Virus record (IMG/VR): IMGVR_UViG_3300046171_000013
Span: 1 to 56,309 of that record
DNA length: 56,309 bases
Strand: one strand, 5' to 3'
Origin: a virus
The position numbers were made by a program, and so were the translations under genes. Positions within the stretch are counted from its first letter, which is position 1, and each line of letters opens with the position of its first letter. This document shows, piece after piece, positions 1,412 to 56,309 of this stretch. The notes beneath the pieces are model-generated. The model did not search any database and was not told the origin of the DNA. It saw only the letters and a program-made list of their open reading frames with translations.

Positions 1412-1434
1412 GGTACAAGTGTGACATGTGTACC
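1412..1434. promoter_or_regulatory. inverted repeat over the terminase small subunit start
   Basis: GGTACA (1412-1417) and TGTACC (1429-1434) form a perfect 6-bp inverted repeat enclosing AAGTGTGACAT, a copy of the regional repeat. It covers the ATG at 1426, where no strong ribosome site is visible, so a bound protein or RNA fold could control terminase expression (inference). Confidence 0.4.
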
Positions 1435-1998
1435 AAGAAAACCGATATTCTTGCAGATGATATAGAGGCCGAGACTGGACGAAAGTTGACGAATCGTCAG
1501 CGTGAGTTCGCTCGTTACTATGTTGAAGGAATCTACTCCAATGCGGAGTGCGCTAGAAAAGCTGGATACGCATCCAATAGTGCGGCGTCCATTGCTGGTC
1601 ATCTTTTGGCAGGCAAAAAGTTTCCACAGCTTGTCGATTACATCCAAGAACTAAGAGAAGAACGAGAACGCCGATATGGCGTAACCGTAACAGGTCAGCT
1701 AAAGCGATTGCACGAGCTGTCTTCTGGTGCGGAAGAGGCTGGCCAGTTTTCAGCGGCGATTAACGCTGAGAAGATTCGTTCCGCTCTTGGTGGCTTGACC
1801 GTAGATAGGCGAGAACAGATTCACCAGCTTGATGATCTTTCCCGTGAAGAGATCACCGCCCGTTTGTCTCAACTTCGTCAGCAGTATCCACAAGCCTTCA
1901 TTGAAGGCGAGTATAAGGAGGTAACTGATGCCGACACCGGAGGCGAACTTTTGGAACACCGTCCGCAGGAATCTGCCGAAGAGCTGTTATCCGACTAG
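1426..1998 (+). CDS. terS: terminase small subunit
   Basis: 190 aa starting MCTKKTDILADDIEAETGRK. The N-terminal half has the typical helix-turn-helix DNA-recognition region of small terminases (LTNRQREFARYYVEGIYSNA, then KAGYAS), followed by a central oligomerisation-type helical region. It recognises phage DNA at packaging and delivers it to the large subunit. The ATG at 1426 lies in the TGTGACA repeat region and lacks a good ribosome site; earlier in-frame codons give implausible sequence. It is separated from the large subunit (8379) by an opposite-strand accessory block, and its 3' end overlaps the nuclease gene by 71 bases. Confidence 0.8.
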   Translation: MCTKKTDILADDIEAETGRKLTNRQREFARYYVEGIYSNAECARKAGYASNSAASIAGHLLAGKKFPQLVDYIQELREERERRYGVTVTGQLKRLHELSSGAEEAGQFSAAINAEKIRSALGGLTVDRREQIHQLDDLSREEITARLSQLRQQYPQAFIEGEYKEVTDADTGGELLEHRPQESAEELLSD

Positions 1999-2467
1999 AA
2001 TCGAGAACCGCCATGGTGGCGGCGTGCCTGACGTACATTTTGCATGGTCTGGGCTTGTATTCTGGATAGAATTAAAAACAACTAAAAACAACACGGTTCG
2101 ATTATCGCCGCAACAAATCGCGTGGAATACCGCGTATTCGCGTAATGGCGGCTTGTCATTCATCTTGGTTAAGCACCTCCCTTCGGGTGACCTAATTTTG
2201 TTTGAAGGCGCCCAGAGCCTTGAAATCGGGCGCAATGGGCTAAGATCGGGGAGCTTGTTTCGGGGTTCGGGACACCAGGACCTGTGGCACCAGGTTCGGG
2301 AGTCGGGGATCGGGCATCTTGAATCGGTACTGGCGCAGCTTCGGGGTTCGGGAGTCGGGGATTCGGGTTCGGGGATCGGGGATCCTGGACCTGGGCAGCC
2401 AGGGACTGGTGCCCCAGTACCAGGGTTACAGCAACCTGGGCTCGAGGCAAAAGAAAAGGAGGCCTAA
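1928..2467 (+). CDS. PD-(D/E)XK-type (VRR-NUC-like) nuclease with a low-complexity tail
   Basis: 179 aa; ATG 1928 follows AAGGAG. Residues about 25-75 carry GGGVPDVHF, then WIELKTT and LSPQQIAWN, matching the PD...(D/E)xK core plus QxxW motif of small phage nucleases resembling VRR-NUC or resolvase-like enzymes. The catalytic Asp, Glu and Lys are visible. From about residue 100 the sequence degenerates into Gly, Ser, Pro and Gln repeats encoded by TTCGGG/TCGGGG arrays, so the tail appears to be a repeat insertion into the coding sequence. It likely resolves or trims DNA at packaging or replication (inference). Confidence 0.75.
   Translation: MPTPEANFWNTVRRNLPKSCYPTRIENRHGGGVPDVHFAWSGLVFWIELKTTKNNTVRLSPQQIAWNTAYSRNGGLSFILVKHLPSGDLILFEGAQSLEIGRNGLRSGSLFRGSGHQDLWHQVRESGIGHLESVLAQLRGSGVGDSGSGIGDPGPGQPGTGAPVPGLQQPGLEAKEKEA
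2225..2385 (+). repeat. TTCGGG/TCGGGG G-rich repeat array A
   Basis: More than ten GGG or GGGG runs separated by 3-4 bases or longer gaps. The densest part, 2340-2382, has seven G-runs. It lies in the 3' coding part of the nuclease gene. The pattern is predicted to form G-quadruplexes on the plus strand. Confidence 0.8.
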
Positions 2468-2474
2468 GCCTCCT
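2457..2474. terminator. convergent hairpin shared by two stop codons
   Basis: AGGAGGC (2457-2463), loop CTAA, GCCTCCT (2468-2474). The stops of the rightward nuclease gene and of the leftward 47-aa gene lie in the loop. On the minus strand the stem is followed by TTTTCTTTT, consistent with a terminator for leftward transcription. Confidence 0.55.
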
Positions 2475-2607
2475 CCTCCTTTATGCTATCCTCGATCTTG
2501 TCGATCAAGGCGCCGAAGGCTGCGAATATGTCTCTATCCTCCGGATCCTTTTCGCATTGCTCAACGACAATGTGCTTTATGTGCATGATGATATCTTCTT
2601 TGGTCAT
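2464..2607 (-). CDS. small acidic hypothetical protein, 47 aa
   Basis: Starts at ATG 2607 within the ATGA junction with the stop of the GP88-like gene (2604), so it is translationally coupled. The sequence MTKEDIIMHIKHIVVEQCEK onward is helical and ends in a run of Glu. No family recognised. Confidence 0.55.
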   Translation of the reverse strand: MTKEDIIMHIKHIVVEQCEKDPEDRDIFAAFGALIDKIEDSIKEEEA

Positions 2608-3212
2608 TTCACAGCCTCTACAATTTGAGTAACGCCATTGTTCGGCGTATAGCATAGCAAGCAATCCTTGCATTTTTGGCCGGTGCAATTTTGTGGCGCG
2701 TCACTGTCCGGTGATACGTTGTTAAACGTCCGGTCAAAGAATGCCGGCGGATTGTCCATTACCGCGTCAATGCGCGGGTTGCTATAGATAAGGATAAGAT
2801 TCGCGGGTTTTTGGTTCTGCATATAAAACTTGCGAATCCATCCTTTGCGCTTTGTCCACAATGCAAAAGAGCAATGCGGATTATGTAACGTGATGTTGTG
2901 GAAATTTTCCAGCATGGTCAGGTTTATCAATTCGCCATGACCGGAAAACCTAAAAAATGCGTCTAGGATTGTCGGCAACATATGCTCCGGAATCAATCCA
3001 CCGGACAACATATCGCTATTGTGTTGCCATGCGGGAGCGCAATTTTTGCGCAATCCGTTTAGCATCTCAACGCTATAGCACTCTGTGCATATGATTGACG
3101 GATCCCCGCACGCGCTCATTTTCATGCAATATTCATTGGTCAGCGTGTTCGTGTTCAATGCTTTGAACCCGTCCAGCTTGCCTGTCATTTTAGAAATTTT
3201 CAAAACGTCCAT
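2604..3212 (-). CDS. GP88-like cysteine-rich phage protein
   Basis: 202 aa from ATG 3212, behind a GGAGG (ATGGAGGATTACAATG). The region KMTGKLDGFKALNTNT and the Cys-rich segment CGDPSIICTECYSVEML resemble the phage 'gene product 88' family, with another pair CTGQKCKDCLLC near the C-terminus. The eight or so cysteines suggest metal or Fe-S binding. Function of the family is not established to my knowledge. It has its own upstream leftward promoter candidate and is coupled to the 47-aa gene. Confidence 0.65.
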   Translation of the reverse strand: MDVLKISKMTGKLDGFKALNTNTLTNEYCMKMSACGDPSIICTECYSVEMLNGLRKNCAPAWQHNSDMLSGGLIPEHMLPTILDAFFRFSGHGELINLTMLENFHNITLHNPHCSFALWTKRKGWIRKFYMQNQKPANLILIYSNPRIDAVMDNPPAFFDRTFNNVSPDSDAPQNCTGQKCKDCLLCYTPNNGVTQIVEAVK

Positions 3213-3238
3213 TGTAATCCTCCATAGTTTACAAGTTA

Positions 3239-3267
3239 AATATAAACTAAAAACAATCAGGAAACAA
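3239..3267 (-). promoter_or_regulatory. candidate leftward promoter before the GP88-like gene
   Basis: TTGTTT (3267-3262), 17-base spacer, TATATT (3244-3239). The spacer begins CCTG; the sequence TTGTTTCCTG also occurs upstream of the first leftward gene near 1089-1098. Confidence 0.4.
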
Positions 3268-3274
3268 ACAAAAA

Positions 3275-3350
3275 GATTCGGGTTCGGGTTCACCTGGACC
3301 ACGACCTGGTCGGGCAGCCTCGAGTCGGGTTCGGGTTCGGGATTCGGGAC
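3275..3350 (+). repeat. TTCGGG repeat array B
   Basis: Contains TTCGGGTTCGGG (3277-3288) and, at 3323-3348, TCGGGTTCGGGTTCGGGA followed by another TTCGGG. The latter has four GGG runs with 3-4-base loops, a classic G-quadruplex pattern. Intergenic, with the Gs on the plus strand. Confidence 0.8.
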
Positions 3351-3360
3351 TAATAAAAAC

Positions 3361-3381
3361 GCCCAGGGACTGGCCCTGGGC
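3361..3381 (-). terminator. hairpin terminator 1 after the Api92-like gene
   Basis: GCCCAGGG, loop ACTGG, CCCTGGGC. On the minus strand it is followed by GTTTTTATT, the layout of an intrinsic terminator for leftward transcripts. Confidence 0.6.
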
Positions 3382-3422
3382 GCCGCTCTAGTATGGAGGA
3401 CTAGAAACAAAAACAAATAAAA

Positions 3423-3443
3423 GCCCAGTCTCGAGGACTGGGC
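3423..3443 (-). terminator. hairpin terminator 2 after the Api92-like gene
   Basis: GCCCAGTC, loop TCGAG, GACTGGGC, followed on the minus strand by TTTTATTTGTTTTTG. A strong intrinsic terminator for leftward transcription. Confidence 0.7.
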
Positions 3444-3453
3444 AGCCGGATGG

Positions 3454-3478
3454 ATGGGGCTGGCATCACCAGCCCCAT
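3454..3478 (-). terminator. hairpin directly after the Api92-like stop codon
   Basis: ATGGGGCTGG, loop CATCA, CCAGCCCCAT: a perfect 10-bp stem five bases beyond the stop codon. There is no T-run, so it may stabilise or process the mRNA rather than terminate alone. Confidence 0.5.
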
Positions 3479-3482
3479 CGCT

Positions 3483-3941
3483 CTAGGCGTATTCAGATTG
3501 GAGATGTTCGTCTATCTCATCCCCATCCTGTATTTCATTGTGATAGAAATCCCCATCAACAGAATATTCGCCATGGTATCCCATGCCATATTCCACATAT
3601 TTGGCGACTAGATTGAATCCCTGTTTAATCATCTCATCATATACAGGGATTGGTGGCGACCATGCTGTGTCGAATTTGAACACATATGTCTCGCCATTCT
3701 CATCGCTATAGATTTCATCTGTATCCCATGGCGAACAGACATCCCATTTCGTGCCCCAATTATCGCACGCCCAATCATACCAATTAGGAGAGTCTGAAGG
3801 AGATGTTGTATCCTTCAATGCTTCTGGCATGGGTTTGATATGGTCGCACATCTCGCCATTGATGATGGCGTCTTTCAACGCCACCATCTTGTTTTTGTCT
3901 GCATGAGACACATAGATTACATTCTGACACCAATTAGGCAT
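3483..3941 (-). CDS. Api92-like (DUF1281-type) ferredoxin-fold protein
   Basis: 152 aa from ATG 3941, with GGAGG at about nine bases. The N-terminus MPNWCQNVIYVSH is the signature of the phage and plasmid family with an Api92-like ferredoxin-like domain, and the C-terminal half has the usual W-rich WGTKWDVCSPWDT and a FDTAWSPPIPVYDEM segment. Function is unknown; members are accessory early genes. It overlaps the upstream DUF3085-like gene by eight bases and is followed by three hairpins. Confidence 0.75.
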   Translation of the reverse strand: MPNWCQNVIYVSHADKNKMVALKDAIINGEMCDHIKPMPEALKDTTSPSDSPNWYDWACDNWGTKWDVCSPWDTDEIYSDENGETYVFKFDTAWSPPIPVYDEMIKQGFNLVAKYVEYGMGYHGEYSVDGDFYHNEIQDGDEIDEHLQSEYA

Positions 3942-4302
3942 AGATAGATACCTCCGTTTCTGAGAGACGAATGTCCAATTCACCATTCCGGCGGACACGA
4001 ATCATTTGTTGTTCTGACAATGGGATGAACTCCGCGAAATCATCTCCGCTTACATCATGAGTCTTTTCCCATAAATCCTTAACGCGCGGAGAATATCCAC
4101 GCGCATAGATAACGTGACATTTGTTTTTGCTAACAATGTCACGCTCTGACGATGGTGACATCAGATAGATGCCCTCATCCTTTACAAGCCACAAACCATA
4201 TTCATCTGTGGTCTCATCCACATAAGGAATTTTGCGGTCATGCTTGACCATGTGGTCAATCATTCTCGCGAACTCTTTACTTCTAAACTTTAGTCTATGC
4301 AT
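3934..4302 (-). CDS. DUF3085-like phage accessory protein
   Basis: 122 aa from ATG 4302 behind ATGGAGGATTAG. The central segment YGLWLVKDEGIYLMSPS and the later DDFAEFIPL match my recollection of the DUF3085 family of phage and plasmid proteins. No catalytic motif is evident. It is the first gene of a two-gene leftward unit with the Api92-like gene, under a good -10 (TATAAT). Confidence 0.65.
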   Translation of the reverse strand: MHRLKFRSKEFARMIDHMVKHDRKIPYVDETTDEYGLWLVKDEGIYLMSPSSERDIVSKNKCHVIYARGYSPRVKDLWEKTHDVSGDDFAEFIPLSEQQMIRVRRNGELDIRLSETEVSIYA

Positions 4303-4331
4303 CTAATCCTCCATTGGTTATTGCATATCTC

Positions 4332-4359
4332 ATTATAACTAATAACAAACTAAACACAA
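4332..4359 (-). promoter_or_regulatory. candidate leftward promoter before the DUF3085-like gene
   Basis: TTGTGT (4359-4354), 16-base spacer, perfect TATAAT (4337-4332), 30 bases upstream of the start at 4302. It sits immediately after the terminator of the previous leftward gene. Confidence 0.55.
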
Positions 4360-4363
4360 ACAA

Positions 4364-4389
4364 AAAGAGCGGCATCTCTGCCGCTCTTT
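4364..4389 (-). terminator. intrinsic terminator after the 87-aa gene
   Basis: AAAGAGCGGCA, loop TCTC, TGCCGCTCTTT: a perfect 11-bp stem, followed on the minus strand by TTGTTTGTG. It separates two leftward transcription units. Confidence 0.7.
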
Positions 4390-4405
4390 CCGTCCTATGG
4401 AGGAA

Positions 4406-4669
4406 CTAAATCCTATCCCATGATCTTGGATTGTCTCTGTGATCCTCGTCAACATAGCGATCTGTGATCTCATATTTCGTGCCCATGCTGTCAAGTTTGT
4501 TCAGATACTTTGGAAAATCGCAATCTTCCTCCAGCGCGTATATCTCACCATTAGGCGTTTGGTATGAGCATTGTGAGAAATCTGCCGCAGACATCCGCGC
4601 AGCCGCGAGCTGTTCTCTTGAAACGATGCCCCAGCCATGTCCTTGGTCTGTGATAAATACGATATTCAT
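4406..4669 (-). CDS. conserved accessory protein, 87 aa
   Basis: ATG 4669 follows ATGGAGGACAACAAA; the ribosome site lies between two ATGs, and I take the second. The protein MNIVFITDQGHGWGIVSREQ onward has HGWG near the start, CSYQTPNGEIYALEEDCD in the middle and a short acidic end. I recognise this pattern from small proteins common in phages and plasmids, with no known function. It is a single-gene unit with its own promoter and terminator. Confidence 0.65.
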   Translation of the reverse strand: MNIVFITDQGHGWGIVSREQLAAARMSAADFSQCSYQTPNGEIYALEEDCDFPKYLNKLDSMGTKYEITDRYVDEDHRDNPRSWDRI

Positions 4670-4757
4670 TTTGTTGTCCTCCATAGACAGGTTGAAAAGA
4701 GTAGGGAGAGCTGTTCGCATCACTGGTCGGCGGTCATCGCGACTCCCTACAAGAATG

Positions 4758-4785
4758 ATTATACACATTAACAAACACAAAACAA
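4758..4785 (-). promoter_or_regulatory. candidate leftward promoter before the 87-aa gene
   Basis: TTGTTT (4785-4780), 16-base spacer, perfect TATAAT (4763-4758). The start codon lies about 90 bases downstream, leaving a leader of roughly 80 bases. Confidence 0.55.
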
Positions 4786-4795
4786 ACTAAATTAT

Positions 4796-4838
4796 TCGGA
4801 TCGGGTTCGCTATGATTCGGGTCGGGTCGGGTTCGGGA
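4796..4838 (+). repeat. TTCGGG/TCGGG repeat array C
   Basis: At 4815-4837 TTCGGGTCGGGTCGGGTTCGGG has four GGG runs with loops of only 2-3 bases, the tightest G-quadruplex candidate in the window. It is followed by a 7-bp stem (ACTGGTG 4838-4844 with CACCAGT 4853-4859), echoing the GGACTGG sequence next to arrays A and B. Confidence 0.8.
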
Positions 4839-4874
4839 CTGGTGGCTTTAGTCACCAGTAGGGCGCCGCCCTTT

Positions 4875-18747: not shown

Positions 18748-18804
18748 AGATTTACCCTGACAGGTCCAGTGTGGATCTGACACTAGCCACGACAGGAGAT
18801 TTAC

Positions 18805-19287
18805 ATGGCTAATACTACCTTTAGCGGACCAGTCCGCTCCGAAAACGGATTCAGTGCGATTGCAAAGAACGCAACCACAGGCGCCGTGACCAGCAACATT
18901 TCTATGACCACCTACACAGCAAGCATTACGATTGCTGCTAGCGGTACATCTCACAAAGAAGCGTCTATTGGCATCCCTGCCAACTTCATTCCAATGGGTG
19001 TAGCGGTTGTTGTGACAGGTGCTACTGCTAACAACATCAACCTTGTAGACATCGGCACAGACGCTGATACAGATGGTTTTGTTGACGGCATCTCTGTTGC
19101 TCTCAACTCAACCGGTTTCAAAGGTTTCTTCCCTTGTAACGGTGTTCTTGGCATGTCTGGTGGCACAACCACTGCCGCTACTGAAACTCCGGACGAGGTA
19201 GAGGTTGTGATTTCTGGCACTGCTGGTGCTGGCGGTGTTTTGGTACTGAAGTTCTTCGGAATTGATACTACTTCTGACACAGCTTAA
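18805..19287 (+). CDS. virion structural protein, 160 aa
   Basis: ATG 18805 with AGGAG nearby. The sequence opens MANTTFSGPVRSENGFSAIA and is Thr-, Ala- and Gly-rich with alternating beta strands and no membrane segment. Similar proteins follow the capsid gene in marine podoviruses and are likely head decoration proteins. Function from position and composition only. Confidence 0.6.
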   Translation: MANTTFSGPVRSENGFSAIAKNATTGAVTSNISMTTYTASITIAASGTSHKEASIGIPANFIPMGVAVVVTGATANNINLVDIGTDADTDGFVDGISVALNSTGFKGFFPCNGVLGMSGGTTTAATETPDEVEVVISGTAGAGGVLVLKFFGIDTTSDTA

Positions 19288-51362: not shown

Positions 51363-51543
51363 TGGCACTTTTGCAAAACGAATGGCAGCGGGGCACTGCC
51401 CTCGATGCCAGACGATGATGCCGCCAGTTGATGTGCATGGGCACATACAATGCACGGTATGTCATCTGGTTATTAGCGAATGTTGTCAGGGAGAACAGGC
51501 TTGTGACTTTGATACCACCGATAAGGCTGGGTCATTGTCGTGA
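51346..51543 (+). CDS. zinc-ribbon protein, 65 aa
   Basis: ATG 51346, GGAGGAG five bases upstream. CPRCQTMMPPVDVHGHIQCT, VCHLVISECCQGE forms a CxxC...CxxC zinc ribbon with an extra CC. Common small phage protein type; possibly a regulator or inhibitor. Stop overlaps the next GTG start. Confidence 0.65.
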   Translation: MIDQGDGTFAKRMAAGHCPRCQTMMPPVDVHGHIQCTVCHLVISECCQGEQACDFDTTDKAGSLS

Positions 51544-51992
51544 AACTTGAGGTCACACCCGTTAGTATTCGTGAAGCGAATGAGTTCGTAGATAACTTCC
51601 ACCGTCATAACAAACCTACTGGCGGTGGGAAGTTTGCTATCGGGGCGACCTATGCAGGAGAACTTGTCGGAGTAGCCATTGTGGGCAGACCTGTAGCTCG
51701 GATGCTGGACGATGGCTCAACCGCCGAGGTTACCAGAGTTTGCGTTGTAGATCACGCACCCAAAAACTCGTGCAGTTTTCTTTACGGGCGGTGTTGGCGA
51801 ATCTGGCAACAGATGGGCGGCAAACGCATGATCACATATACCTTGCAGGAAGAGTCTGGCTCCTCGCTTCGGGGCGCCGGTTGGAAGATTGTCGGGGAGG
51901 TCAAACCTACCTCGCAGGGCTGGGATCGCAAGAATCGGAGCCGAGAATGGCAACCAATCTATGGGCAGCTGAAGTTTAGGTGGGAGGCATAA
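51540..51992 (+). CDS. XF1762-family (GNAT-like) protein, 150 aa
   Basis: GTG start at 51540 (GTGA junction). The signature ANEFVDNFHRHNKPTGGGKF, AIGATYAGELVGVAIVGRPV, ARMLDDGSTAEVTRVCVVD, then YTLQEESGSSLRGAGWKIVG matches the XF1762 phage family, predicted as an acetyltransferase-like fold. Possible target unknown. Last gene of the rightward unit, followed by a terminator hairpin. Confidence 0.8.
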   Translation: MKLEVTPVSIREANEFVDNFHRHNKPTGGGKFAIGATYAGELVGVAIVGRPVARMLDDGSTAEVTRVCVVDHAPKNSCSFLYGRCWRIWQQMGGKRMITYTLQEESGSSLRGAGWKIVGEVKPTSQGWDRKNRSREWQPIYGQLKFRWEA

Positions 51993-55137: not shown

Positions 55138-55243
55138 TTCTACCTCCGTAGATTTTGAACCAACAATCCGTGCAAAGAAGCCTATTGCCATCCTTCGCAT
55201 CCGCCTTCTCGCCACATGTGTGGCATCTACTGATCGGCAACAT
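55040..55243 (-). CDS. zinc-ribbon small protein (3' end uncertain), up to 67 aa
   Basis: ATG 55243, GGAGG nine bases upstream, overlaps the methyltransferase end. MLPISRCHTCGEKADAKDGN, RLLCTDCWFKIYGGRNGK holds CxxC...CxxC. The frame then overlaps gene 54982-55137 by 98 bases with odd composition (GHGHGGGCHRH). A one-base insertion in the AAAA run near 55155 would end the gene at TAG just before the next ribosome site, which is plausible. Confidence 0.55.
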   Translation of the reverse strand: MLPISRCHTCGEKADAKDGNRLLCTDCWFKIYGGRNGKSKSMGHGHGGGCHRHDRGGVDNQTWRKPD

Positions 55244-56309
55244 CCCTCATGCCCTCCAGCAAATGACATATAACGTCAATCGTCCAGCCATTGCCCAACA
55301 TCCTATAACGCTGGGTGTTCGACACATGGTTGGTGTAATTGTCCGGCACAGTCTGCAACCGCTCACATTCGATGGGCGTCAACTTGCGCCACATCAAACG
55401 CATCTCATCGCTGTATGCGTCCGGATACCTGCCCTCCGGCAACGGCGAAACCAATGTGTCCTTCTCCACCGTGGACAAACAACGTGACTTGCCCTTCGTG
55501 TCATGAACCTCCAAACACTGATTGACCGGAACGTCCTTGTTATAGTCATCGCGGACTCCATCCTTCAAACGGCGCCCAACAATAGATGCCGGATACAACA
55601 CAAAATTATTGTGCTCCCATGACGATCCGCTCAACGTGGGAACCTTCCCATCGTCCGCCTTGATGCCGCCTTGGTTCTTGCCCCTCGCAACTTGAAGAAT
55701 CTTAGGCTCCAGATTGCCGCCAGATGCCGCGCACAAACTTGGTGCCTTGCCATCCGGATGATAGACGCGGCGATTGTAGCCGTGACCTTTGAGGTCTGCC
55801 TCGCCAGCCAACTGCAATCCGGTTTCCGTTGGATCGTCAAAATCAAACACAAGCTGGCGGCGGTTCTTCTGAAAGTACGACTTCAGATTGCCGCCCTTGA
55901 AGTAGTTCGCGTCAATGCAATGCGACTTCTCGCGATCCGTGAACCCATCCTCCAAGATGTCCTTCAAATAGACATGCTTGTTCTCCGGCAAAGACTTGAC
56001 TGGAATGTTCGTCCAATACAAACGCCGCCGATTCTGCGCACTCACACGATTAGAGTTGATATCCACAGGCTTGCATCCCAGAAGGTCAGATATAACGTCC
56101 TGATATTCTTTCTTCATATTGACGTTCTCCAACAGGAAATACTTTGGCTTCAACGCTTTCAACAGCCGCACAAACTCAAAGAAGAGTTTGGAACGCGGAT
56201 CGTCAAAATTGAGTTGCTTGCCAGCAAACGAAAATCCCTGACAAGGTGAGCCGCCAATCAGCAGGTCAATTTTCTGGTGCCCATTGCCATCTTCATGCGG
56301 AATAACCAG
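55227..56309 (-). CDS. C5-cytosine DNA methyltransferase, C-terminal part
   Basis: The 361-residue continuation of the gene starting at 170. Motif IV LLIGGSPCQGFSFAGK with the catalytic Cys, motif VI YFLLENV, then SAQNRRRLYWTNIP (motif VIII), a target recognition region, and the C-terminal LTPIECERLQTVPDNYTNHV, RMLGNGWTIDVICHLLEG (motifs IX and X). Combined length about 417 aa fits phage Dcm/DNMT3-like enzymes. Position 56309 is a codon start; the join to position 1 is one base out of frame. The enzyme likely protects phage DNA or marks it for packaging or regulation (inference). Confidence 0.9.
   Translation of the reverse strand: MVIPHEDGNGHQKIDLLIGGSPCQGFSFAGKQLNFDDPRSKLFFEFVRLLKALKPKYFLLENVNMKKEYQDVISDLLGCKPVDINSNRVSAQNRRRLYWTNIPVKSLPENKHVYLKDILEDGFTDREKSHCIDANYFKGGNLKSYFQKNRRQLVFDFDDPTETGLQLAGEADLKGHGYNRRVYHPDGKAPSLCAASGGNLEPKILQVARGKNQGGIKADDGKVPTLSGSSWEHNNFVLYPASIVGRRLKDGVRDDYNKDVPVNQCLEVHDTKGKSRCLSTVEKDTLVSPLPEGRYPDAYSDEMRLMWRKLTPIECERLQTVPDNYTNHVSNTQRYRMLGNGWTIDVICHLLEGMRDVADQ

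Follow-up and report, generated by a model that had tools for sequence, protein, structure and literature searches.

The window, a marine virus record of 56,309 bp analysed over its whole length, carries three arrays of the short word TCGGG, all G-rich on the plus strand, and related phages carry arrays at the same places and on the same strand that are built from other words. We propose that each array is a set of copies of one short binding site, recognised by a single putative sequence-specific factor that acts on minus-strand early/middle promoters, a reading to which we give about an even chance. The arrays and their neighbours are:

1423–1998, plus strand: terminase small subunit gene, terS (Terminase_2).
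1928–2467, plus strand: gene of a small PD-(D/E)xK nuclease (VRR-NUC/Hjc-like; Pfam scores below curated cut-offs), the tail of which holds array A.
2183–2385, plus strand: array A, 14 TCGGG words, 13 of them within 2226–2380, towards the 3′ end of the nuclease frame.
2604–3212, minus strand: GP88-like gene below array B (PF17338; the match is weak here, below the curated cut-off, and strong in the HTVC027P homologue gp33).
3239–3267, minus strand: predicted promoter of the GP88-like gene, TTGTTT-17-TATATT, its −35 starting 10 nt past the last unit of B.
3275–3350, plus strand: array B, made up of 7 TCGGG words and located upstream of the GP88-like gene on the opposite strand.
3358–3384, minus strand: intrinsic terminator (hairpin and T-run) bordering B, the source of the 'CCAGGGACTGG' motif.
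3423–3443, minus strand: second intrinsic terminator.
4406–4669, minus strand: small gene below array C, exchangeable cargo.
4758–4786, minus strand: predicted promoter below array C, TTTGTT-17-TATAAT.
4796–4838, plus strand: array C, with 5 exact TCGGG words, located upstream of the gene at 4406–4669 on the opposite strand.
4838–4859, strand not assigned: hairpin ACTGGTGGCTTTAGTCACCAGT bordering C, variable among relatives.

A sequence-only reading had noted three G-rich plus-strand arrays in this stretch, and all three are found where it placed them. The sequence TTCGGGTTCGGG has five matches with at most one mismatch, compared with 0.14 expected from dinucleotide shuffles, and array A contains 13 TCGGG words, whereas no 160-nt stretch of random sequence exceeds 4. 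Arrays A, B and C (2183–4833) account for 26 of the 38 plus-strand TCGGG words of the window; none lies on this strand between 4838 and 26124, and the earlier remark that the late region is free of such arrays holds. The conserved unit is TCGGG at a spacing of 5–8 nt, which accounts for the pattern of G-runs. The dispersed arrays do form one family, on one strand and limited to this region, as had been supposed, but two further details of that description change. Array A, which lies ~230 bp beyond the end of terS, is not between genes; it lies inside the nuclease frame. The word GGACTGG, shared beside B and C, is no part of the repeat. Next to B it forms the loop region of the terminator at 3358–3384 and changes in relatives, and next to C it is a piece of the variable hairpin.

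Within the genes of the window TCGGG occurs 7 times against 24.5 expected. Other GGG-containing words are avoided there too and avoidance of GCTTG is weak, so that avoidance of the array word elsewhere in the genome is only suggestive. Other repeats are present in the same region. An extended inverted repeat, GTAGGGAG...CTCCCTAC, lies in the leader below array C (4701–4750), along with what may be a short upstream frame; some relatives have it, whereas in others (L013, L034) it is cleanly absent. A further repeat set lies upstream of terS (1227–1255 and 1289–1434) and comprises three tandem copies of AGTGTGACA and several TTGGCACACTTGTCACACTT-like copies; the corresponding region of phage 023Pt_psg01 (L171 5680–5800) has similar GGCACACTTGGCACA words upstream of small genes. 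Elsewhere in the window, a Mu-gpT-DE RNA gives a strong Rfam match on the plus strand (18755–18807; 67 bits, E 1.6e-13) directly upstream of an ORF at 18805–19287, and a plus-strand match to the Mom family of DNA base modification (51540–51992; E 6e-8) lies ~3 kb from a predicted DNA methyltransferase (55227–56171).

The sequence-only reading had staked itself on the presence of the arrays in close relatives, where they are indeed kept. Among 47 IMG/VR loci encoding the nuclease at 60–99% identity, nearly all that reach far enough carry arrays at the same relative places and on the same strand: A in the 3′ tail of the nuclease gene, B upstream of the GP88-like gene and C upstream of another minus-strand gene. 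A separate scan for TCGGGTTCGGGTTCGGG covered IMG/VR as a whole, and the number of its matches is a lower bound. The closest isolates are the Pelagibacter phages HTVC027P and HTVC023P and phage 023Pt_psg01. HTVC023P-type pelagiphages (HTVC027P) and 023Pt_psg01 share gene order and array positions with the window and have TerL proteins ~60% identical to its own, but their array words are GCTTGnn or GCTCG in place of TTCGGG. HTVC027P carries GCTTGnn arrays at all three positions and 023Pt carries GCTCG/GCTTG arrays at A and B. Another 160 loci, from relatives of these two phages, bear this out. Array A with at least four units is present in 43/44, 75/75 and 75/75 loci of the three groups, many of which are close relatives and not independent. 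A fourth word, CCTGCGn, occupies A and B in two loci (L379, L383), and two bacterial MAG contigs have the TCGGG or GCTTG form. This array type was not found in HTVC023P and DSL-LC04; by visual inspection only, two gaps of this region in HTVC023P contain longer units repeated three times.

The nuclease gene beside array A is absent from the GenBank annotation of HTVC027P (L172 8217–8588) and 023Pt (L171 7019–7396); the HTVC027P record instead annotates gp32, an opposite-strand frame over array A. In G005 (the contig of L193) the arrays of the first ~5 kb recur at the contig end, so that this 63-kb contig looks circular or permuted, with a genome of ~58 kb.

Across 210 loci, clusters of at least four units number 276 at A and 124 elsewhere; because A often splits in two, these 400 clusters are segments and not separate arrays. 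Opposite-strand clusters of this size number zero in the same 210 loci. In the nearly complete genomes checked, pairs of array words cluster only in this locus, with single exceptions. Arrays A and B are of the same word type in 114 of the 116 classified loci (21/21, 44/45 and 49/50). The sites are polar and follow one consensus per genome that differs between lineages, as operators and stoperators do.

Spacing is 7 nt in 184/197 cases in the B arrays of the HTVC027P group, and 7 nt is the main spacing in the nuclease tail, out of codon register. With synonymous recoding as the expectation, the nuclease tail of the window contains 12 TCGGG words against 1.07, and the wider count for the tail is 350 against 31.6 (~11-fold). 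The excess extends into the conserved nuclease domain (130 against 16, ~8-fold), where the words are scattered and not tandem. When tails are aligned, 78% of comparisons retain TCGGG and 25% retain other 5-mers, a difference somewhat inflated by repeat alignment; in the conserved domain the effect is small (65 vs 58%). A protein-level repeat in the nuclease tail was considered and rejected, since the 7-nt spacing is off the codon register, the arrays of HTVC027P and 023Pt continue beyond the stop codon, and neither B nor C lies within a gene.

Arrays B and C end near the −35 elements of predicted sigma70 promoters (all promoters here are predictions). In the TCGGG clade, B ends 9–10 nt before a predicted TTGTTT/TTGTGT-17-TATAAT-like promoter in 17 of 19 unique relatives, and the HTVC027P group has its last unit directly adjacent to TTGACA in 20/34. 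Promoter-like sites lie no more than 20 nt beyond the minus-sense end of 22/46 and 36/53 non-A arrays; shuffled flanks give 18% and 9%, and the opposite side of the arrays 0/45 and 7/52. The 023Pt group has such a site within 20 nt in 3/39, a low count because the promoter lies further off, usually tens of bases away. Beyond array A there is no corresponding promoter (0/51, 4/72 and 0/92), and promoter regulation therefore does not account for A.

The array accompanies the promoter and not the gene. A small gene intervenes between array and GP88 in nine loci. Seven of the nine have the last unit directly against the TTGACA of this gene, which is now the first; here the array stays with the promoter and not with the GP88 gene. 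Array B stands over GP88 in 102 cases, while C stands over many unrelated small genes as part of a nearly identical array–promoter module. Another minus-strand promoter of the window, that of the gene at 3934–4302, is without an array. In the HTVC027P transcriptome, 'extra cluster 2', highly expressed at 6–9 h, consists solely of gp33 and gp34, which lie below B and C respectively, and 'extra cluster 1' is gp30, the next minus-strand gene to be annotated below A (PMC12753301); extra cluster 2 is a two-member cluster in one phage of another lineage, and other causes could produce it. The words 'repeat' and 'promoter' are absent from the main text of that paper.

The arrays look like binding arrays rather than G-quadruplexes, because the word differs by lineage at fixed spots and on a fixed strand and two of the three arrays adjoin promoters. 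The putative factor could be encoded by phage or host. It would occupy words of the same orientation, ~5–8 nt apart and most often 7, that end at the −35 or ~10 nt before it. Arrays B and C would then be upstream regulatory elements of minus-strand early/middle promoters, at which the bound protein, probably an activator rather than a repressor, would set the timing and strength of transcription of the GP88-like gene and of the exchangeable small gene. Array A, at the convergent end of the nuclease gene, would be one more group of such sites, serving perhaps as a distal site, a factor sink or a roadblock. The recognised word would have changed several times in the family, jointly at the sites of a genome, like the operator sets of heteroimmune phages. 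A simultaneous change of dozens of sites is hard to achieve without homogenisation, which weighs against the binding-array reading. Partial Mantel tests for a partner gene single out neither TerS nor GP88, and B has no consistent partner.

More tentatively, and as a possibility we consider doubtful, the arrays may be a family-wide cis-element of fixed position whose word is replaced in concert and read in ~7-nt steps by a putative factor controlling one promoter class. They would then represent a rapidly evolving system of specificity among lytic phages, similar to immunity operators and possibly serving to exclude or tell apart co-infecting relatives. If this is true, promoters in abundant marine phages would be controlled by a cis-element that keeps its place and swaps its word.

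An unlikely alternative is repeat turnover without function, in which slippage gives birth to units, recombination spreads them between arrays, and they survive only in harmless spots such as the terminator–promoter gap or a dispensable protein tail. Copy number does differ among close relatives, homogenisation yields one word per genome, and the array borders are tolerant gaps of compact transcription units. Turnover of this kind does not readily explain the lack of opposite-strand clusters and the near-absence of clusters elsewhere in the genomes checked, the excess of scattered, non-tandem words in the conserved nuclease domain, word conservation (partly alignment-biased), or the occurrence of arrays in nearly every relative. 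The suggestion of a purely selfish repeat is likewise possible but disfavoured by promoter coupling and word conservation.

We find it rather improbable that the arrays are a pac-like packaging site or an iteron-like replication site, with a ring- or filament-forming protein, such as TerS or an initiator, wrapping repeats of the same orientation. Array A is close to terS and within the nuclease gene, known pac and ori sites occur in coding sequence, and short same-orientation repeats would fit a ring or filament. GCTTG-type loci among those with 023Pt-type nucleases also match HTVC027P-type TerS best (17/17). TerS was rejected as the co-evolving partner: best-hit counts were promising and a between-clade signal is present, but within clades the array shows no association with TerS after nuclease and GP88 are taken into account (partial Mantel r −0.08, −0.19 and −0.06, that is, at or below 0). 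The arrays are also three in number and separate, two of them tied to promoters, and the orientation of TerS differs among clades. A replication origin sought by GC skew gave no signal. The HTVC027P locus has no GC-skew switch, which would still allow unidirectional replication; neither HTVC027P nor 023Pt has a strand-composition switch beyond that of gene orientation, and the minimum near 6 kb in the window coincides with the switch in gene direction. Clear positive evidence did not emerge for the packaging or replication sites proposed earlier, possible as they are.

Action at the RNA level appears very unlikely. Here CCCGAA in minus-strand read-through RNA would load Rho, or UCGGG/GCUUG in plus-strand RNA would be bound by a TRAP-like protein. 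All arrays of the window are just beyond minus-strand terminators and their variable spacing fits single-strand binding, but the corresponding CAAGC, CGAGC and CGCAGG of other lineages are not consistently C-rich, and the arrays follow the downstream promoter and not the gene.

The three arrays contain perfect G-quadruplex motifs, the only plus-strand G3+N1-7 x4 motifs of the window, and in this the sequence-only reading was right; that the quadruplex is the point of the arrays is a different matter. The motif is present in 40/44 TCGGG-type A regions and on the plus strand in 0/75 and 0/75 A regions of the two sister groups, where the GCTTG/GCTCG arrays at the same places lack G-runs and are unable to form a quadruplex. 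These sister lineages rule out a G-quadruplex as the conserved function and make it incidental to the TCGGG lineage; since, in addition, TCGGG keeps its TC, a conservation that quadruplex loops would not require, an element that acts by its fold in replication pausing, transcription block or recombination is extremely unlikely. The arrays also caution that a conspicuous quadruplex pattern can be a side effect of the word that one lineage uses.

Pelagiphages of the HTVC023P type are common and widely distributed in the ocean (PMC9599517); the arrays are unmentioned in the literature found. As a defined cis-element they come with an isolate (HTVC027P), a host that can be cultured and time-course RNA data that already exist, which make the regulator and the cause of word turnover directly testable.

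Several known systems use short repeats. The STRR of cyanobacteria are heptanucleotide repeats scattered in chromosomes; they share the heptad period and lineage-specific units with the present arrays but are not beside fixed phage genes or on one strand. The P1 and SPP1 pac sites are packaging sites with repeated short boxes. They too have short repeats near terS, but here there are three arrays, two of them promoter-linked, and no TerS-specific covariation within clades. The lambda origin in gene O and P4 ori1 and crr are short direct-repeat arrays for origin function or cis-replication. Iterons and phage origins of this type are alike in having short direct repeats, partly in coding sequence, and more than one array per genome; they differ in that no origin signature or initiator was found here and that the arrays are at promoters. 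The stoperators of cluster A mycobacteriophages are 13-bp asymmetric repressor sites, polar and mostly in one orientation (PMC6550527, PMC9283540). They are single sites distributed genome-wide with a known repressor, whereas the present arrays are 5-nt tandem words in one 3-kb locus. In both families the consensus varies by phage subgroup, the sites of a genome change together and some are at promoters, and in this respect the turnover of the word across the sites of a genome resembles the operator/stoperator divergence between phage groups (PMC6550527).
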